Assembly: GCA_021850365.1 (NCBI GenBank)
Contig: JAJZMH010000002.1
Coordinates: 1 to 33,198, forward strand
Direction: 5' to 3'
DNA: 33,198 nt
Origin: a bacterium
GTDB lineage: Bacteria; Patescibacteriota; Saccharimonadia; Saccharimonadales; UBA4665
Position numbers and translations under genes: made by a program. Position 1 is the stretch's first letter. Each line of letters begins with the position of its first letter. The notes under the pieces are model-generated. The model ran no database searches and was not told the origin of the DNA. It saw nothing but the letters and a program-made list of their open reading frames with translations. Of the stretch, positions 7,475-20,400 are shown in pieces.

Positions 7475-7551
7475 GGCGACGTAGCTCAGCTGGTTAGAGC
7501 ACAGGACTCATAAGCCTGGGGTCAGTGGTTCAAGTCCACTCGTCGCTACCA
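7475..7551 (+). tRNA. tRNA-Met(CAU), elongator type, CCA encoded
   Basis: Full cloverleaf: acceptor GGCGACG/CGTCGCT (G1-U72 wobble), D-arm GCTC/GAGC, anticodon loop CTCATAA, T-loop TTCAAGT, discriminator A and encoded CCA (7549-7551). The variable segment GGGGTCA matches elongator tRNA-Met rather than Ile2. The anticodon stem has an A31-G39 mismatch. The last codons of a serine recombinase gene lie antisense over its 3' half, which suggests that this tRNA is the integration site of the adjoining element. Confidence 0.9.
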
Positions 7552-9052
7552 AATCGTCTTTTTTTGCTTTTTTTTCAGTTATTTTGTTTAATAACAGATA
7601 AGAATCTATATCTTCTGTGGTTCCAAATCCGGTTTCAAAATCATAAGGTATTCCAAATGGAAAAAGTAATGACTGAATAGCTCGCCTACTTCTTGTACTG
7701 GCTCGGTTCCAGAAAATATCGGGAGTCTGGATAAAAGTCATAGCTTCATCTACGACCTGTTCTTTTTCTTTAACGTAACTGTCCATTTCGACCTTTTCTT
7801 GTTCTAAAGTTTCTATTTTTTCATCCAATCTATTTATTTGTTCATTCTTATCTTCTTCGGTAATCTTATCTGCAATAAATTTTTGATTTGTCGAGAATCT
7901 AAGCTCTTTACAAGTCTGTATCTCCCGATTAACTTGTGTAGCAGTTTCTAGAGCTTTTCCATACTCATCATTCCAGGCCTTCATTACTAAGGTCTTGTAT
8001 AGCCTTGCAATTCCTTTATTTAACGGTCTACGAGCCTCTAAGAGCTCTCTAAATTGTCTATGCACTTTATCTACGTCTACGCTAGCTTTTTTGCCTGTAA
8101 TGACTCTAGTACACGTCTTACGGCCACATTGGTATAATGAGTAGTTTCTACTTCTTCCTCTTGGTGCACTAGCCGTTAATTTATTTCCGCAATTAGTACA
8201 AAGCAATGTTCCTCTAAGAGAATAAAGATCGTCTCCTTTTATTACAATTATCTTCTTATTTTTGTTGATTATATCTATATTCTTATAAATAATTTCTTCA
8301 TCAACTAAGGGAATATGTCTGCCCTTTATAACCTTATCGCTAAGTTTATTTTTAGTATAACCAGAATAGAAGAAATTTATGAGGAGCTTTTTCATTGCCT
8401 CGTATGATTTTGGCTTACCGCTCTTTGTTTTAATGCCTATTTCGAATGCATAACGAGAAATATCGGTTACACTATAAAGTCCCGTTGCAAACTTATTAAG
8501 AACATCTTGTACTTTAGATCCATATACAGAATCAATAACTACGCTCCTGTTTCGTTTTATATAACCTATCGGTGCACTATGAGGCCATTCTCCTTGTTCA
8601 ACTCTTTGTCTCATGCCTGTTACACTTCTAATGGCTCTAATTTCATTATCAAATTGAGCTGCAGCAGCTAATATAGCTTCTAGAAATCTTCCTACTGGAT
8701 CATCATCTATAGGCTCTGTAACCGATACTATCTTTACTCCATACTTCCCAAGAGCAACCTTAATCCCATAATAGTCTCCTAAGTTTCTTGCTAATCTATC
8801 GATTTTCCAGATATATAAAACTTCTATCTTTCCCTTATTGTTTTTAACAAATTGGAGCATTCTCTGAAGTTCAGGGCGATCTGCAAATTTAGCAGATTCT
8901 CCTTTATCACTAAATATATTTATATCTGGAATTTGTATATTTTGTTGCTTATATGCAAATGCTTTGCACTCTTTTTCTTGGTTATCTAAACTTAATCGTT
9001 TCTCTGCCTGTTCTTTTGTTGAGACTCTTGTATAGATGATTCCTACGCTCAT
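7508..9052 (-). CDS. Large serine recombinase (resolvase N-domain, recombinase domain, zinc ribbon)
   Basis: A 514-residue site-specific recombinase. The resolvase domain begins IIYTRVSTKEQ with nucleophile Ser11 and includes DRPELQRML (58-66) and KIDRLARN (83-90). A recombinase domain follows (around PHSAPIGY, 157-164). Next come a zinc ribbon with C285, C288, C309 and C314 and a coiled coil (about 340-440). The last 14 residues (VATSGLEPLTPGL and the codons around them) are encoded antisense to tRNA-Met, with the stop in the tRNA anticodon region. This layout is typical of an integrase whose attachment site is the tRNA 3' part. It probably mobilises DNA lying to its right. Confidence 0.92.
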   Translation of the reverse strand: MSVGIIYTRVSTKEQAEKRLSLDNQEKECKAFAYKQQNIQIPDINIFSDKGESAKFADRPELQRMLQFVKNNKGKIEVLYIWKIDRLARNLGDYYGIKVALGKYGVKIVSVTEPIDDDPVGRFLEAILAAAAQFDNEIRAIRSVTGMRQRVEQGEWPHSAPIGYIKRNRSVVIDSVYGSKVQDVLNKFATGLYSVTDISRYAFEIGIKTKSGKPKSYEAMKKLLINFFYSGYTKNKLSDKVIKGRHIPLVDEEIIYKNIDIINKNKKIIVIKGDDLYSLRGTLLCTNCGNKLTASAPRGRSRNYSLYQCGRKTCTRVITGKKASVDVDKVHRQFRELLEARRPLNKGIARLYKTLVMKAWNDEYGKALETATQVNREIQTCKELRFSTNQKFIADKITEEDKNEQINRLDEKIETLEQEKVEMDSYVKEKEQVVDEAMTFIQTPDIFWNRASTRSRRAIQSLLFPFGIPYDFETGFGTTEDIDSYLLLNKITEKKAKKDDLVATSGLEPLTPGL

Positions 9053-9098
9053 GGAATCATTTTAACATTATTAGTCTTTTATTTGCATCTATCGATTT

Positions 9099-9254
9099 CT
9101 AATTTGGAACCGAATCAATTATTTTATCTATAGCAATACTATTTAATAAAGCTATCAAATCCTCTATTTGTCCATCTGCTAAATGCCTAAAATCTTTTCC
9201 TAATAATTTTCTGGCTTCTTTAATGGTTATAATTGGTTTATCGGAGATCAACAT
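9099..9254 (-). CDS. Small recombinase-associated protein, unknown function
   Basis: I choose the ATG at 9254 (51 residues) because a GGGGAG ribosome-binding site sits 8-9 nt upstream; an in-frame ATG at 9281 lacks one. The protein is helical with the pattern PIITIKEARKLLGKDFRHL, then a segment rich in Asp, Glu and Leu. Similar short proteins recur, from memory, beside recombinases in candidate-phyla genomes, but I cannot name a function. It overlaps the 3' end of the next gene upstream by 17 nt, indicating translational coupling, and ends 46 nt before the recombinase start. Confidence 0.65.
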   Translation of the reverse strand: MLISDKPIITIKEARKLLGKDFRHLADGQIEDLIALLNSIAIDKIIDSVPN

Positions 9255-9549
9255 TTTGTCTATCTCCCCTAATAAAACCATTGGCCTGATTTACGTAAGT
9301 AGTAAATAATCTCTCTGGGTATTTACCATCGCTTGCTCGAGCCATCCAATCACGGATTTGTTGAGCTCCAAACCTATAAATTGCTTTGCAATACCACTTT
9401 TTATAACTAGGGTTTTTGTAGAGCTTAACTAGTTCATCCGATAATCTATCGACTTCATCAAGTGAAACATTCTTAACTAAATCTCTTTTTTTAAATGAAT
9501 CATTTGCCAACTGAGAATTATTAAGTATTTCTTTAATGCCATTTGTCAT
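9238..9549 (-). CDS. Hypothetical protein, 103 aa, in recombinase operon
   Basis: A 103-residue, mostly helical soluble protein with a tryptophan- and arginine-rich middle (KKWYCKAIYRFGAQQIRDWMARAS). No membrane segment or catalytic motif is evident and I do not recognise the family. Its 3' end overlaps the following small gene, so the two and the recombinase probably form one accessory operon. A TATAGT box lies 7 nt before the ATG, suggesting a leaderless mRNA. A role in element transfer or recombination control would be inference from location only. Confidence 0.6.
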   Translation of the reverse strand: MTNGIKEILNNSQLANDSFKKRDLVKNVSLDEVDRLSDELVKLYKNPSYKKWYCKAIYRFGAQQIRDWMARASDGKYPERLFTTYVNQANGFIRGDRQNVDLR

Positions 9550-9642
9550 ACTACCGACTATAGGTTATTAGATAAGCTTAGTTAGGAAAGTCCGATTTTA
9601 AATCTTGGTCTAATACATAATTAAAGTGTTAATTTAGCAAAA

Positions 9643-10422
9643 CTATTTGTTTAAATCCGATTTGAGTCCGATTAAAAGATCTTTGAGATTCTCCGAAGCA
9701 ATATTTGATTTTATGTTCATCTTTACTTCCATAGAAGTACATATTGAAAAGAATAATTTCTTGAGTTTATTATTAAATCCCATAGCCCTAAAATCCTCTG
9801 AAAGATGACGTTTTTTGCTGTATCCTCTTGTATCTAGGTTTATTTGGTCTCTACTTATTATTTCGTTTTGATGAAGATAAACATAATCAAAAAGTTGCTC
9901 TAAGGGCGAACCCTCTTCAAATTCATGTAATTTAACATCGATCCCATCAGGCTCAATATTGATATAAATGCTTTGTTTTATCTTTTTAAGATTTACTATT
10001 TTTATATTTGAAGATTCTTCTTTTTTAAGTCTATCTATTATTATCGATAAAGCTTTTAGAGCAGCATCGAATGATTTGTTAATTAAATTTTCGCCTTGTG
10101 AAAAACTATTTGCTGAAAGTGCAAGATTAAGATTAATGCTAGAACTAGTCGACGAAAAATCATGTAAGTGCCTATGTGGAATAATAGGAAAATTGAGAGT
10201 AGCCAATACTCCCTCAAACCAATTACGATAGATAAATTCAAGTTCAGGGTCTTGTTTACCGCCACCCCTAATTATCCTAGGACTATATGTCCCATCTAAA
10301 TAATTATTCCAATCTTTTAGTACTCTTTTCTTAACAATCAATCCAATATCATAATTTATTTTTAACACCTTAATAACATCATTGAGCGTTGCATCCTTCG
10401 GCTCAGATAATGAACCTATCAT
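9643..10422 (-). CDS. Hypothetical accessory protein with winged-helix-like C-terminal part
   Basis: A 259-residue soluble protein that I do not recognise as a whole. Near residues 185-225 the sequence HQNEIISRDQINLDTRGYSKKRHLSEDF resembles the winged-helix output domain of OmpR-type regulators, where a similar 'sRdqL' segment leads into the recognition helix. No receiver or kinase signature is visible in the N-terminal part, which has a central Ser/Asn-rich linker (about 90-105). It lies between the TerS-like gene and the recombinase operon on the same strand. A regulatory role for the element is possible but not shown. Confidence 0.5.
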   Translation of the reverse strand: MIGSLSEPKDATLNDVIKVLKINYDIGLIVKKRVLKDWNNYLDGTYSPRIIRGGGKQDPELEFIYRNWFEGVLATLNFPIIPHRHLHDFSSTSSSINLNLALSANSFSQGENLINKSFDAALKALSIIIDRLKKEESSNIKIVNLKKIKQSIYINIEPDGIDVKLHEFEEGSPLEQLFDYVYLHQNEIISRDQINLDTRGYSKKRHLSEDFRAMGFNNKLKKLFFSICTSMEVKMNIKSNIASENLKDLLIGLKSDLNK

Positions 10423-10453
10423 AAGCTTAAAATGGAGTTATCGACAGGAGCAT

Positions 10454-10873
10454 TCATTTTTCTAATTGTTTTACTGTTTTTTTATCAAAAGAAGGTCTGG
10501 GAATATTATTCACAAAAACAACATTAACATTATCTAAATCAGGTTTAGAATTACGACCTATATAACCTTTAAGTTCCAGAGCGGTTACAAGGTATTTATG
10601 CCTTATAGCATAATCTGGCATTGAGTTAGATGAAAGATTTTTCTTGTTTCGGGTAATAATTTTAGTAGCATTTAATCCTTCTTTTAATGCTTTAGCCAAA
10701 GACTTATTATCTAATCCCATGTTTTCAATAATTTCTTTAAAAGCTTTTGATCTAGTTACTTTTTGAGGATTTTTAATCATAGCCCTAGAATACCCTGCTT
10801 TTCTAAGAGCAGAGGCCATAGTTCCACCATTTTCAAACAATTCTTTCGCTACTTTTCTTTGTTTAATAGTCAT
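10454..10873 (-). CDS. TerS-like (phage terminase small subunit-like) helix-turn-helix protein
   Basis: A 139-residue protein. The N-terminal 60 residues (KQRKVAKELFENGGTMASALRKAGYS) match the helix-turn-helix pattern of terminase small subunits and related phage DNA-binding proteins: a KQ start, a spaced G, then ALxKAGYS. There is no large terminase or other capsid gene in view. It may therefore be a domesticated or element-encoded DNA-binding protein. A TATAAT box (10888-10883) precedes the ATG by 9 nt. Its promoter and first codons are duplicated at 12303-12373. Family assignment is by motif memory only. Confidence 0.5.
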   Translation of the reverse strand: MTIKQRKVAKELFENGGTMASALRKAGYSRAMIKNPQKVTRSKAFKEIIENMGLDNKSLAKALKEGLNATKIITRNKKNLSSNSMPDYAIRHKYLVTALELKGYIGRNSKPDLDNVNVVFVNNIPRPSFDKKTVKQLEK

Positions 10874-10922
10874 AGTACTTTAATTATACTATTCAATTAA
10901 TTTAATTTTAGTCGTATTATAA
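10852..10922. repeat. 71-bp direct repeat, copy 1 (divergent promoter plus start of TerS-like gene)
   Basis: 69 of 71 bases are identical to 12303-12373. It contains the first codons of the minus-strand TerS-like gene and its -10 box. It also carries a good plus-strand promoter: TTCAAT (10892-10897), 17-nt spacer, TATTAT (10915-10920). It is therefore a bidirectional promoter module. Confidence 0.9.
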
Positions 10923-10961
10923 GGTTGTGCAATTTAGATCTATGTAGTAAAGAAGTATGAG

Positions 10962-12149
10962 ATGGTAAACGAAGCAAAATTTTCAGACATAAAACCAACA
11001 AAACAAATTGATAGATTAATATTTTGTTCAAATTGTGGAGAAAAACAACTAAAACTTGGCCAACTTCATTGTAGTAATTGTGGAGAACCATTTTATTCCA
11101 ACAAACAACAACCTTTATCAAATAAAACATATGAGAATAAATCAGGTCGTAATCTAAATACGATTGGTGGTTGGCTAACACTGCCGTATATAGGTTTTTA
11201 CATATGGGGCTTAGTAGCAATATATGGAATAATATTTGTACCATTTTATGGTAATGTTTCAATTGGTAAAAAATTCTTTGTTGAAATTTTAGCTATCTGT
11301 ATAGCTTTTACGGCTATAGCGAGTATTATTCAAATACATAAGCATAGTAAAGAACTAATTGGCACGGTAACTATATTGTATGTCTTGGGATTCATATTAT
11401 CTATTAACTCGGGATTGACTGCTCACAGTCTAGTTACTCCTATTACATATGCTGTAACGGCGAGTTTATGGATACTTTACTTTCATAAGTCAAAAAGAGT
11501 AGCTGCATTATTGAACAATAAAACAACAAAAGGTACTTCAAGTAACCATAGCTCAAATAGATTATTGGCCATAACGCTACCGATTGTTGCTATTGTGGTT
11601 TTAGTAATTATAGTAAGCATAGTAGTTTACTCCAATCACCAAAACAAGGTTGATCAGAATAAATTATTAAGTCTAAATAGTCAACTCCAATCTCAATATA
11701 ATCAACTAGCATCTTTACCCTCCTCCACGACTTATACTAAATCCGAATGGGATAGCTACTACCAAAATATTATAAAAAAGTTAAAAAATATTAATAATCA
11801 GGCCGATGCTTCTTATTCTAACCCAGCTATGAATAGTTTCGATTCGGCCATAGAAACTACTTCTAGTGATTTTATTAATTCCGTCATCTTGGCTCAATCT
11901 GCTTCAGACATGTCTTTCCAGATTCAGAGTGATCAAAACACAATTAATTCAGATAAATCTCTTATTATCGAGGACTCCCAGTTAGGTTCTTCTTATGTTC
12001 AGGCAGAAGAAATTCAATTAACTCAAGACGAGAAGCAACTCTCTAGCGATCAACAAACATATACGAGTCAAGAATCACAACTTAAAAATCTTGATAAAAC
12101 GCTATTGTCTGAATTATATAAATTAGATAGTGAAACATCTAGTATATAA
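10962..12149 (+). CDS. Zinc-ribbon membrane protein with extracytoplasmic coiled-coil domain
   Basis: A 395-residue protein. A cytoplasmic zinc ribbon (C22, C25, C37, C40) is followed by about four membrane segments (roughly 68-185) beginning IGGWLTLPYIG, reminiscent of the DUF2569 type. A fifth membrane segment lies near 205-228. The remaining 165 residues are rich in Ser, Gln and Asn and appear helical, possibly an extracytoplasmic coiled coil. Transcription is likely from the repeat-borne promoter at 10892-10920, with a leader of about 35 nt. It is the first of three plus-strand membrane-anchored proteins in the accessory region. The function is unknown. Confidence 0.7.
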   Translation: MVNEAKFSDIKPTKQIDRLIFCSNCGEKQLKLGQLHCSNCGEPFYSNKQQPLSNKTYENKSGRNLNTIGGWLTLPYIGFYIWGLVAIYGIIFVPFYGNVSIGKKFFVEILAICIAFTAIASIIQIHKHSKELIGTVTILYVLGFILSINSGLTAHSLVTPITYAVTASLWILYFHKSKRVAALLNNKTTKGTSSNHSSNRLLAITLPIVAIVVLVIIVSIVVYSNHQNKVDQNKLLSLNSQLQSQYNQLASLPSSTTYTKSEWDSYYQNIIKKLKNINNQADASYSNPAMNSFDSAIETTSSDFINSVILAQSASDMSFQIQSDQNTINSDKSLIIEDSQLGSSYVQAEEIQLTQDEKQLSSDQQTYTSQESQLKNLDKTLLSELYKLDSETSSI

Positions 12150-12272
12150 ATTTGGCCAACTACCAGACTACTATTCTTTGTAATAAGGTTACTCTATTTG
12201 TACAAACTTAAATATGAGATTAACACATTTAAGTCGTATAGTTTACATATTTTTACATTTCCTATGATTCAA

Positions 12273-12309
12273 GTCTACTGACTTATACATTTACTAGAGT
12301 TTCTTTTCT
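12273..12309. repeat. 37-bp direct repeat, copy 1
   Basis: 34 of 37 bases match 13942-13978, including 25 identical bases at 12285-12309. Its last seven bases (cttttct, 12303-12309) are also the first seven of the 71-bp repeat, so two repeats meet here at a microhomology. Confidence 0.8.
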
Positions 12310-12324
12310 TTGCTTAATGGTCAT
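12283..12324 (-). pseudogene. 13-codon in-frame fusion relic of two accessory genes
   Basis: This tiny frame reads MTIKQRKETLVNV then TAA. Its first seven residues equal the start of the TerS-like protein at 10873, and its last eight (RKETLVNV) equal the end of the small frame at 13952-14056. The join falls in the shared cttttct (12303-12309). It looks like the scar of a deletion that fused the first codons of one gene to the last codons of another. Confidence 0.7.
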
Positions 12325-12373
12325 AGTACTTTAATTATACTATTCAATTAATTTAATTTTAGTCGTATTATAA
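12303..12373. repeat. 71-bp direct repeat, copy 2 (promoter of the next gene)
   Basis: 69 of 71 bases match 10852-10922. The plus-strand promoter is retained exactly (TTCAAT 12343-12348, 17-nt spacer, TATTAT 12366-12371) and lies 11 nt before the ATG at 12383. The minus-strand start codon now opens only the 13-codon relic. Confidence 0.9.
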
Positions 12374-12382
12374 ACTTCAGTA

Positions 12383-12937
12383 ATGAGCGATAAGAAAACT
12401 AGTAGCAAGAAAGCAAGAATCATCGGCTTATTGATAATTATTCTATTAATTTTTGTATTATTCTGGGATATCTCTGTTTATCATAATCAGTACAGTATTC
12501 AAAATATAGTAAAAAATCAATTTAATCAAAATAGTAATAACATAAATAATCAGAATAATAATAACAATGTAGCATTGCAAAGTAGCTGTTTTAATAATGC
12601 GGATTCAAATGGAGGATCTACGCTAAGCTTTCTATACGATGAGGCAAAACTACCCAACAATAATGCCGAATCGACAATTCTAAATATTCTTCAGACACGT
12701 GTAAACAATGAAGGGAATTGCTTTAAAAACTATCCTGTTATACATTCAGAACAACAAAATGTTTCTCTTCAAAAAAATTGCATAAATTCCATGGATAGTT
12801 TTTATTCACAATTTGTCGGATTGGCTAACGCTCAGATGCTTGATCCTTATCAATTTCCCGATGCTAGTACTTATCTTGTAGATTTTCAGAATATACAGTC
12901 CCAAGCAGAACAAAATTGCAGAATGGCATATCCATAA
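12383..12937 (+). CDS. Single-pass membrane-anchored Asn-rich protein, unknown function
   Basis: A 184-residue protein. A lysine-rich N-terminus leads into a membrane anchor (about 12-30). An Asn/Gln-rich linker (45-62) and an extracytoplasmic domain with four cysteines (C69, C113, C133, C179) follow, enough for two disulfides. I do not recognise the domain. The promoter is the second copy of the 71-bp repeat, so it is probably co-regulated with the gene at 10962. Translation would start with a leader of only about 4 nt and no Shine-Dalgarno sequence is seen. The anchor and Asn-rich linker suggest display on the cell surface. Confidence 0.65.
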   Translation: MSDKKTSSKKARIIGLLIIILLIFVLFWDISVYHNQYSIQNIVKNQFNQNSNNINNQNNNNNVALQSSCFNNADSNGGSTLSFLYDEAKLPNNNAESTILNILQTRVNNEGNCFKNYPVIHSEQQNVSLQKNCINSMDSFYSQFVGLANAQMLDPYQFPDASTYLVDFQNIQSQAEQNCRMAYP

Positions 12938-13081
12938 ATAACAGCTTTTTTAAATTCAATTTAACCGAATGATTATGACAAATCATAAAATAATAGAAAA
13001 TAAATCGTTTGAAAATATGAAAAATGTTATATCAGGAGTACAATTTATTTAGAATTACACTATAGAAGTACAAAGCATTTT

Positions 13082-13786
13082 ATGAAAAAAGTTTTTGGAA
13101 TTATTGGAGGAGCATTATTATCATTATTGGTTATCAGTACTTTACTGACTCATATCCATAGTCCAAGCACAGTAAATATTAAAGATACCTCTTCTCACTA
13201 TCAGAAAAGTCAACAACCAAATGAAATAAATAAAAATTCTAACTCTACTACCCCTTCACCAACTAATCAACAATCTACTCTCCAACAAGAAGAAGCACAA
13301 TATCAACAAGATAAAGCTTTGGCACAAGAATACCAAAATCAGGCCAACCAAGATACTCTCAATGCTCAAAATGCTGCAAATCAACAACAAAACAACTATA
13401 ATCAGATGGAGCAAGAGATTCAACAAGAAGAAGCACAATATCAACAATATCAACAACAATATAGTACTGATCAACAAAACCTAAGTACTTATTCCTCGAC
13501 TACTTCAACAACGAACCAAAACCAAAGCGCAATACTATCTTGCTTAAATAACATACCGAATTATTCTAACTTTTCGAGCTTGGAACAGCAATTAACGTCA
13601 ACCGAAAACTCTTTAGCAAATCTTCCTAATGCAGTCAATCAAGAAAGTGGCTATTCAGGAGCAACTGCCGGTGAAATAACTCAAGCATATAGTAATCAAT
13701 ATGCCTCTTTAAGTGGTACTATAAATTCTTTGATAACTGAATTAAATCAAATTCAACAAGGAATTAACAATTGTGAAAGTTCATAA
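13082..13786 (+). CDS. Membrane-anchored Gln/Asn-rich coiled-coil protein
   Basis: A 234-residue protein with an N-terminal signal or anchor (about 4-22), then a strongly Gln/Asn-rich helical region (65-150). That region contains the element QQEEAQYQQ twice, encoded by an exact 26-bp direct repeat at 13283-13308 and 13421-13446. The C-terminal part is Ser/Asn-rich with two cysteines that could form a disulfide. No family is recognised. It resembles the other two anchored proteins in this accessory block in composition and likely surface location. No clear Shine-Dalgarno sequence precedes the ATG. Confidence 0.65.
   Translation: MKKVFGIIGGALLSLLVISTLLTHIHSPSTVNIKDTSSHYQKSQQPNEINKNSNSTTPSPTNQQSTLQQEEAQYQQDKALAQEYQNQANQDTLNAQNAANQQQNNYNQMEQEIQQEEAQYQQYQQQYSTDQQNLSTYSSTTSTTNQNQSAILSCLNNIPNYSNFSSLEQQLTSTENSLANLPNAVNQESGYSGATAGEITQAYSNQYASLSGTINSLITELNQIQQGINNCESS
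13283..13446. repeat. 26-bp exact direct repeat within Gln-rich gene
   Basis: Identical 26-bp units at 13283-13308 and 13421-13446 encode the repeated QQEEAQYQQ. Identity at the DNA level suggests recent duplication or gene conversion. Confidence 0.85.
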
Positions 13787-13941
13787 ACTAACCATTTTTC
13801 TATTGGAGAATTTAGGGTAAAGATTTTTGTCAAATCCCTCCACCTTAGTGCCAATTGTTTGTTTTATTAACTAAATCATTGAACACCTTTAATTCTTTTC
13901 CTAATAAATATTTTCCGCTTGGATAATTATCCATGGTTTAT

Positions 13942-13978
13942 GTCTATTCACTCATACATTTACTAGAGTTTCTTTTCT
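13942..13978. repeat. 37-bp direct repeat, copy 2
   Basis: Matches 12273-12309 at 34 of 37 positions and covers the last codons of the minus-strand frame at 13952-14056. Confidence 0.8.
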
Positions 13979-14056
13979 AACCTGTTTAGCTATTTGGTAC
14001 ATATCTATCAGCTCTCGTTTGATTTGGTTCCAATTCGTTCCTATTACGCCTACCAT
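13952..14056 (-). pseudogene. Short accessory gene remnant, 34 codons
   Basis: The frame reads MVGVIGTNWNQIKRELIDMY and ends QVRKETLVNV then TGA. The GTNWNQIKREL segment faintly recalls the C-terminus of MobC-like mobilisation proteins, but the likeness is too short to trust. An in-frame TAA lies eight codons upstream, so no full gene remains. Its last codons also occur in the fusion relic at 12283, showing that this sequence was once present in two copies. Confidence 0.45.
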
Positions 14057-19194: not shown

Positions 19195-19410
19195 ATGACA
19201 ACTCTAAGTATTTCATTAGACGAAAAACTAAAAAACGAGATTGATAGATTTTCTAAAGAAGATGGTGTATCTAAAAGCGTTGTAGTGCGTCGCTTACTGG
19301 AGCAAGCTACATGGGAGAGAACCTGGAAGGAAATGTCGGTACAAATACGTAAAAAGTTGGATAAACTTAATCTTTCTTCTGTAGACGATATTGAAAAATT
19401 CTTAGGATGA
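19195..19410 (+). CDS. Ribbon-helix-helix (CopG-type) antitoxin
   Basis: A 71-residue protein starting MTTLSISLDEKLKNEIDRFS. This is the beta-strand and first helix of a ribbon-helix-helix DNA-binding domain, followed by GVSKSVVVRRLLEQA. The C-terminal 25 residues would wrap the toxin. Antitoxins of this kind neutralise the partner PIN nuclease and repress their own promoter, where a 12-bp inverted repeat is seen. Its TGA overlaps the toxin ATG (ATGA), the normal coupling for such pairs. This overlap and the sensible stop also argue that UGA is not reassigned. Confidence 0.9.
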   Translation: MTTLSISLDEKLKNEIDRFSKEDGVSKSVVVRRLLEQATWERTWKEMSVQIRKKLDKLNLSSVDDIEKFLG

Positions 19411-19838
19411 AGCCTGTACGAGTAGTTTTAGATACTAATGTGTATATCGCGGCTGCTCTTAACCCACAGAGCGTTATATATAAAATAGTTGAAGACTCAG
19501 CCGCACAATACCTTGCCGAATATTACACTTCACCAGAAATATTACAAGAGCTACAAGATAAATTAGAGAATAAACTAGAGTTTTCTCGAGTTGAAGTCGT
19601 TAGATGGTTAAATCGACTAGAGAAAGCCGTTATTGTCATACGGCCACAGCAAAAAGTAGATGTGCTTACAGAACGTGATCCTTATGACAACAAGATACTA
19701 GAATGTGCCATGGAAGCTAAAGCTGACTTAATAATCACTGCAGATCGTGATTTGCTGGATCTTAAAGAGTTTAATGGCGTTAAAATTATGCACACAATGT
19801 CGGTAAAGTATTTGTTCCCTCAGTTAAAAGATATGTGA
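19407..19838 (+). CDS. PIN-domain ribonuclease toxin
   Basis: A 143-residue PIN domain. Metal-binding acidic residues are visible: D9 in VVLDTNV, a Glu in the SPEILQEL helix (44 or 48), D94 in DPYDN and D113 in TADRD. The pattern matches the 'PIN family toxin component' group usually paired with ribbon-helix-helix antitoxins. PIN toxins such as VapC cut RNA, often a single tRNA in its anticodon loop. It sits between tRNA-like fragments (left) and a run of divergent tRNAs (right), an arrangement discussed in the findings. All catalytic residues are intact. The true target is unknown. Confidence 0.9.
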   Translation: MKPVRVVLDTNVYIAAALNPQSVIYKIVEDSAAQYLAEYYTSPEILQELQDKLENKLEFSRVEVVRWLNRLEKAVIVIRPQQKVDVLTERDPYDNKILECAMEAKADLIITADRDLLDLKEFNGVKIMHTMSVKYLFPQLKDM

Positions 19839-20008: not shown

Positions 20009-20083
20009 TGGGGTGACCGACAGGTGCTGCCCCTGTGTCTTTAGCGTCACAAGCTAATGGTTTGCTGTTAAACTACGGCCAAC
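20009..20083 (-). tRNA. Divergent tRNA-His(GUG)
   Basis: The anticodon loop is TTGTGAC with a perfect 5-bp stem (TTAGC/GCTAA). The D-stem GTTT/AAAC and T-stem ACAGG/CCTGT are also perfect. G-1 opposite C73, the hallmark of tRNA-His, is present and CCA is encoded (20011-20009). Oddities are a T1-C72 mismatch, two bases between the D and anticodon stems, and a T-loop GGCAGCA in place of TTCRANY. Most stems are intact, so it may be functional. Confidence 0.65.
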
Positions 20084-20091
20084 AAACTATT

Positions 20092-20123
20092 AAAAAGCCC
20101 TCGTACCTTTATCTGGTAGGGGC
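20092..20123 (-). terminator. Intrinsic terminator overlapping the 3' end of the UCA tRNA
   Basis: On the minus strand, GCCCCTACC (the tRNA acceptor end) can pair with GGTACGAGGGC with a 2-nt bulge across an A-rich loop, followed directly by TTTTT (20096-20092). The terminator arm is thus the tRNA 3' end itself. Confidence 0.55.
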
Positions 20124-20187
20124 TAAATGAATCGAATGTTTACTTTTAGGTTTGAAATCTAACGCTCCATCATTACACTAAGTCCCC
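20114..20187 (-). tRNA. tRNA-like gene with anticodon UCA, Trp-like backbone
   Basis: The acceptor GGGGACT/AGCCCCT has one A-C mismatch. The anticodon loop is TTTCAAA, giving UCA. The T-loop is TTCGATT, the discriminator is A and CCA is encoded. Further A-C mismatches occur at 31-39, 53-61 and 52-62, all explained by G-to-A changes from normal pairs. The backbone resembles tRNA-Trp, and it is too short for tRNA-Sec. UCA would read UGA, which this genome uses as stop, so decay or a non-translational role is more likely. Confidence 0.5.
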
Positions 20188-20325: not shown

Positions 20326-20400
20326 TGGTTGCGGGGGCAGGACTCGAACCTGCGACCTATTGGTTATGAGCCAATCGAGCTGCCACTGCTCCACCCCGCT
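20326..20400 (-). tRNA. Initiator tRNA-fMet(CAU)
   Basis: The acceptor (A)GCGGGG/CCCCGC(A) has an unpaired 1-72 (A-A), and the D-stem GAGC/GCTC gives A11-U24; both are initiator hallmarks. The anticodon loop is CTCATAA, the T-arm GCAGG TTCGAGT CCTGC is canonical, and A73 plus CCA are encoded. The anticodon stem is ATTGG/CCAAT, with only two of the three consecutive G-C pairs normally required for P-site entry. Confidence 0.9.

Follow-up and report, generated by a model that had tools for sequence, protein, structure and literature searches.

Saccharibacteria may possess a cassette-capture system of their own, a reading to which we give about even chances: the 3' end of tRNA-Met would be its entry site, a 122-nt repeat with coding-like selection its cassette-end site, and a recombinase other than an integron integrase its enzyme, and it would spread toxin–antitoxin and membrane-protein genes. 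The repeat came to light at a rearrangement scar in the window, by which we mean the whole stretch of 33,198 nucleotides analysed here, from a bacterium of the Saccharimonadales. The scar by itself is an ordinary rearrangement; the cassette array is apparently new, and the repeat that it exposed suggests that these bacteria, with their small genomes, maintain cassette arrays behind a tRNA gene. If true, this would provide a concrete gene-exchange route among these bacteria and a defined site pair for finding the enzyme. Those parts of the open literature on integrons, cassettes and islands in Saccharibacteria, Patescibacteria and the candidate phyla radiation that we consulted contain no description of such tRNA-anchored arrays.

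The joint is a real join of two DNA pieces having seven letters in common (Table 1). As predicted, two repeats meet here: CTTTTCT is the exact overlap of the direct repeats 10852-10933/12303-12384 and 12257-12309/13926-13978, and the same 7-mer is also present at 10852 and 13972. A copy of the start and promoter region of a TerS-like gene (12303-12373) is fused to sequence copied from the end of the 13952-14056 frame, and the in-frame minus-strand join of the two that had been proposed is indeed there, reading MTIKQRKETLVNV* from 12324 to 12283. The two source frames share their phase at the joint (AGA AAA G), for which the chance is one in three, and the 13-codon chimeric frame is best taken as a by-product of the joint, for which no function is needed. 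The first repeat pair (10852-10922 versus 12303-12373) is 97% identical over 71 nt, with similarity lost sharply on the far side, and the second (12264-12309 versus 13933-13978) is 87% identical over 46 nt. An overlap of at least 7 nt was found at 0.10% of 394,428 random junctions (scored within 9-16 kb); with a short identity beyond chance (7 nt) and long homology absent, the joint has the marks of a microhomology-mediated rearrangement. It took away one cassette end (the TACCA side) and put a spare TerS promoter fragment ahead of gene 2. Searched against the genome's own assembly (35 contigs, 653 kb), the TerS start had one further match, a weak one (contig C35, E 7e-4, 42 nt), and the 12257/13926 repeat had none. 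The original prediction also proposed a look for other scars with the same microhomology, and no second scar was found in this assembly.

Table 1. Features of the window around the joint and the evidence for each.
Feature	Position	Strand	Evidence or remark
tRNA-Met(cat), chromosomal anchor of cassette region, 3' end CGTCGCTACCA	7475..7551	+	ARAGORN, Rfam; tRNA-Met upstream of repeat in relatives
Large serine recombinase, 3' end overlaps tRNA	7508..9052	-	Pfam Resolvase 1.9e-31, Recombinase 8.7e-6; PHROG integrase 7.2e-73
TerS-like gene	10454..10873	-	Homologs G002 64%, G010 59%, G047 42%; start MTIKQR
Block-left end copy 1: TerS-like first 7 codons and promoter region	10852..10922	-	97% to 12303-12373; longest exact run 54 nt
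Gene 1, zinc-ribbon and membrane protein	10962..12149	+	N-terminal part 42% over 193 aa to L029 TerS-neighbour gene
Cassette-end repeat stub, 44 of 122 nt, gene-proximal end	12266..12309	-	Ungapped alignment to full repeat
13-codon chimeric frame MTIKQRKETLVNV	12283..12324	-	Spans joint
Microhomology at joint, 7 nt	12303..12309	.	Repeat-pair comparison
Block-left end copy 2: truncated TerS-like start and promoter region	12303..12373	-	Both differences from copy 1 synonymous
Gene 2 (unit 2), of no confident family; by eye a hydrophobic segment at the N-terminus	12383..12937	+	Sequence, Pfam, PHROGs
Gene 3 (unit 2)	13082..13786	+	Homologous stretch before repeat in G002, 74% over 729 nt (DNA)
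Full 122-nt cassette-end repeat, contains 34-codon frame 13952-14056	13935..14056	-	nhmmer 90.3 bits; sequence-only model E 5.5e-26

The TerS-like gene has no named match in Pfam or PHROGs, and its protein is found in 6 of 98 relatives (own genome included), at 2 loci in the genome_contigs set and 1 in viral contigs. A 39% homolog in IMG/VR precedes a long ORF, which by eye is a candidate large terminase. Since the TerS-like gene of G002, a genome of the same genus, also starts MTIKQR, the start in the window is native. An insertion into an interrupted TerS gene was considered, as the flanks join into one open frame, but was rejected because G002 and G010 natively start MT(I/L)KQR. The two synonymous differences between the block-left copies suit a functional allele from another strain, though they are two letters only.

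A look for relatives carrying the intact block had been proposed, and one single undisrupted block (TerS-B-cargo-gene3-repeat) stands on contig C28 of G002, made up of recombinase DNA with small genes and one gene of 258 aa, the TerS-like gene together with its promoter region, and three short ORFs, a homolog of gene 3 and the full frame; an intact double block was found in none of the three genus genomes (own included), a small sample. The first 20 nt of the recombinase contig of G002 match the tRNA-Met 3' end exactly, and the tRNA-Met of this genome lies beside a permease-like gene, followed by a different cassette. In G001, of the same genus, tRNA-Met, one C39-peptidase-like gene and the frame are present without the recombinase block. 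In locus L029 (a Candidatus Saccharibacteria MAG, with the coordinates of family contig G125:C7) a gene-1-like protein directly adjoins TerS. From these comparisons, gene 1 and genes 2-3 look like two cargo versions for one block type. The 259-aa island gene is present in 2 of 93 family genomes, own included, and its protein has no relative among the viral contigs. As a separate observation, the stretch of G002 between the TerS promoter region and the cargo (L012, about 1960-2080, before a 38-aa ORF) contains by eye an inverted repeat, GTCTTACG...CGTAAGAC, which has no Rfam match at gathering score.

The 13952-14056 frame, originally taken as a second minus-strand gene, turned out not to be an ordinary gene and to form the coding-like core of a multi-copy cassette-end repeat. 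With its 34 residues as query, 30 of 93 family genomes gave matches, and in several of them many copies stand one after another. The repeat spans the frame; in the alignment, read in gene direction, it starts on the gene side with GGTTCAA-like letters and finishes on the far side with ...CGCCTACCA. With a sequence-only model and a limit of E ≤ 1e-3, the repeat is detected in 38 of the 93 family genomes and in 54 of the 392 from the order; some of these matches are weak, and strict search filters lose weak ones. At E ≤ 1e-10 it is detected in 24 of 93 family genomes, as counted among the matches listed. The alignment covers 28 of the 49 places listed, and a further alignment, A1, has 16 copies; the profile was built from 14 of the 28, the degenerate ones being left out (all of G114, G118 and G122, the one of G020, two of G025, and one each of G117, G007 and G124). 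A reading of the 12257/13926 repeat as a decayed tRNA attR belonging to the serine recombinase was rejected, because its GGTTCAA-like end is part of the end that the 122-nt repeat conserves in relatives. Shuffling gives p 0.0024 for the gene-proximal end and p 0.045 for the far end when compared with the tRNA 3' part, a hint of likeness. A lone copy in G001 (L033, G001:C4, 1553-1656) is without the first 17 positions of the profile (the far end), and no tRNA is present in this 3.2-kb stretch.

The repeats separate small units. In L066 nine copies enclose eight gaps, each with an ORF, of which one is oppositely oriented, and L067 has four repeats with two toxin–antitoxin-type operons between them, one of PemK with a sub-cut-off MazE match and one of PIN with a partner without assignment. 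Other cassette proteins match BrnT, CopG antitoxin, PIN beside an HTH protein, GNAT acetyltransferase, Peptidase_C39, AAA_18 and transglutaminase, and for 8 of the 20 scanned Pfam gives no match at E ≤ 0.01. We also saw a transposase-like ORF (by eye) between two cassette repeats in G117 (L071:2568-3740).

The position of the repeat was analysed at 40 loci from 38 of the 54 repeat-matching genomes, the remaining ones having mostly weak matches; L034 and L137, where nhmmer finds no repeat, were left out. A same-direction ORF stops between -30 and +80 nt of the gene-proximal end in 24 of 40 copies of at least 40 bits, as compared with 169 of 2000 random placements, and an opposite-direction stop falls there in 2 of these 40. 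The counts for all 60 copies are 33 in the same direction and 4 in the opposite direction, with 257 of 3000 at random. The 16 strong repeats without a same-direction stop in the interval used for this count speak against the cassette reading. A tRNA-Met lies upstream on the same strand within 7 kb at 19 of the 40 loci, for which the chance, estimated from three tRNA-Met genes per about 1 Mb, would be near 1%. Its distance to the repeat is 6.4 kb in our window, where the recombinase block stands between, below 1.7 kb in 17 of the 18 others and 3.1 kb in one. The insertion point lies at an intact tRNA 3' end, as in tRNA islands: the tRNA-Met is complete through CTACCA in 8 loci, and in a ninth, L069, its halves flank unknown bases, so that it was counted as none. 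Against this stand the 21 loci without an upstream tRNA-Met, of which some are cut by the end of the contig or locus and several have about 3 kb clear; one of the loci, L133, has tRNA-Arg in place of tRNA-Met.

Comparison between genomes indicates that a gene and its 3' site are exchanged as a unit. A PIN-type cassette is found behind tRNA-Met in G002 and behind a repeat in G122, the 669 nt that start at the junction being 84% alike. A different cassette stands behind tRNA-Met in G113 and behind the fourth repeat of a G114 contig (82% over 1366 nt from TACCA on); the G113/G114 pair was set aside as an example of an empty site, the same cassette being found at another array position. The tRNA of G123 and a repeat of G098 are followed by a common stretch of 73% over 532 nt, and the 40 nt to the left of these three junctions are only 44-53% alike. 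The PemK/MazE cassette together with its own repeat lies behind tRNA-Met in G122 and behind a repeat in G114 (87% over 712 nt), and this match ends within 3 nt of the far end of the repeat. It begins some way inside the junction, at about 18 nt in G122 and 11 nt in G114, which counts against a precise start, and the stretch common to a G124 repeat and the G118 tRNA starts 74 and 33 nt in, not at the junction. Several common stretches thus start off the junction, and provide no evidence of precision.

A separate question from that of the scar is whether the repeat is instead a dispersed small gene family, its rows having arisen by ordinary duplication and homologous recombination. This is favoured by the coding-like pattern: in the frame, 50 synonymous and 70 non-synonymous codon changes were counted, as compared with 27/84 and 17/101 for the two remaining forward frames; the minus frames, for which the count covered the opposite end of the repeat, have 66/135, 15/173 and 39/147. 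The codon-position entropies are 0.63, 0.35 and 0.84, with p 0.001 for the excess at third positions, and in 22 of 28 copies the frame stays open for 24 codons. Such coding-like constraint speaks against a pure recombination site, which would not need it. We nevertheless regard a gene family as doubtful, given that the copies lie at the 3' ends of unrelated genes, are anchored at tRNA-Met and delimit common cassettes starting at or near TACCA, and that 6 of 28 copies have a stop within the 24 codons. The pattern could reflect a translated peptide or a trace of gene descent.

Integrons have attI and attC sites, the tyrosine integrase IntI, and an attC that folds into a long imperfect hairpin. 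The arrays resemble theirs in several respects: each unit carries one gene or toxin–antitoxin operon, gene 3' ends bear a repeat of about 120 nt, the anchor is fixed, and the same cassette stands at differing array positions between genomes, so that the logic of the array, as judged from sequence comparison, appears integron-like. In contrast, the anchor here is a tRNA gene, not all genes point away from it, and no integron integrase exceeds the TIGR02249 cut-off in any of 12 genomes; sub-threshold matches occur in 10 of these 12, and also in 14 of 14 control genomes. The tyrosine-recombinase places below the cut-off (one each in nine of the 12 genomes, four in G117, none in two) are in our reading Xer-like. 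No attC-like hairpin was found either, as RNAalifold on 16 copies gave 10 pairs and a consensus of -0.99 kcal/mol. With neither integrase nor fold, we rejected an identification as integrons. The tycheposons of marine bacteria are tRNA-targeted islands, and with such islands the arrays share insertion at a tRNA 3' end and serial accretion of small units, whereas here the units are separated by a conserved 122-nt repeat with a coding-like frame, and not by a mere tRNA 3' fragment.

As for the enzyme, the recombinase genes end inside tRNAs in the window and in L029, where a gene of the serine-recombinase kind (by eye) ends inside tRNA-Glu, and such enzymes may therefore use tRNA 3' ends. A PF00239 serine recombinase is present in 11 of 15 repeat-bearing genomes and absent from the other 4; with no integron integrase above the cut-off either, no dedicated recombinase was found in the genomes searched, which counts against the cassette reading. 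A serine recombinase is found in the units of the window and of G002, and not among the 20 cassette proteins scanned in relatives.

We think it probable that the locus is a cassette region behind tRNA-Met to which a second block, or an allele of it, was added by an illegitimate join. Units of one or a few genes with a 3' 122-nt repeat would insert behind the tRNA 3' end, ...CTACCA, or behind the repeat, with the same ending, of a unit already present, being cut and joined at the ...TACCA end common to both. The first unit in this genome would have comprised the serine recombinase, the TerS-like gene and cargo. A second copy of the block, or the allele of another strain, would then have been added by illegitimate recombination, its incoming TerS-like start being joined at CTTTTCT to the repeat that already stood after gene 1. 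That resident repeat would have been cut to its 44-nt stub, a full repeat being left after gene 3. The observed order follows in one step when the right end of a block is joined to the left end of a second one. The most natural route would be a transformation-type recombination with a homologous right flank and a microhomologous left one, or an unequal exchange between sister islands. We infer both the site-specificity of insertion and the order of events at the scar, and all genomes compared are draft assemblies. The first of these routes resembles homology-facilitated illegitimate recombination, in which one end is joined by homology and the other illegitimately (PMC3240628); here, in contrast, the product alone is visible.

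The original prediction held that a second copy of both minus-strand genes must once have existed and then collapsed. This necessity is not supported, as a one-step join yields the same product and G002 carries a single block. In its fuller form, two complete units, from recombinase to repeat, would have stood in tandem, and a microhomology deletion would have removed the rest of the first repeat together with the recombinase-to-TerS part of the second unit. In relatives, units do stand in rows at this locus, each with a repeat of its own (nine copies in L066), and the recombinase contig of G002 and the cassette behind its tRNA-Met look like two units in a row; moreover, the stub and repeat diverge more than the TerS starts (6/46 versus 2/71, Fisher p 0.056), which would fit two distinct repeats. 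We still hold this course of events to be unlikely: it requires two events, the small sample of genus genomes contains no intact double block, and the stub and the full repeat are identical at 25 of 25 nt over 12285-12309, so that they look like one copied repeat. These 25 include three positions where G002 differs from both, while 6 of 21 differ over 12264-12284 (Fisher p 0.006).

A simple tandem duplication of 10852-13978 within one chromosome via CTTTTCT, followed by loss and replacement of cargo, is a special case of the added-block reading. It predicts the exact product and the ends are sister-like, but the two scar ends are unequal in divergence, so that a single duplication would not be clean, and no similarity was found between gene 1 and genes 2-3 or their flanks, though the block ends are 87-97% alike. 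As the cargo differs between the blocks, tandem duplication alone is insufficient, and we consider it quite unlikely. A chimeric assembly of two strain alleles is very improbable: the genome is a draft and the 54-nt exact repeat in the TerS start could confuse a short-k assembly, but the 7-nt overlap at the joint would be too short for a k-mer misjoin, and a swap at the 54-nt repeat would leave the joint in place.

Both 7475-10873 of the window and L029:8001-10927 have a recombinase gene ending in a tRNA 3' end and a TerS-like gene, with no capsid genes by eye; the block sits at tRNA-Met in the former and at tRNA-Glu in the latter, and could be a phage-satellite-like element. Elsewhere in the window, a second tRNA-Met lies at 20326-20400 (minus strand), followed downstream by two weak tRNA matches at 20012-20082 and 20117-20187 (34 bits), past which a toxin–antitoxin-like pair was seen by eye at 19195-19838 on the plus strand.
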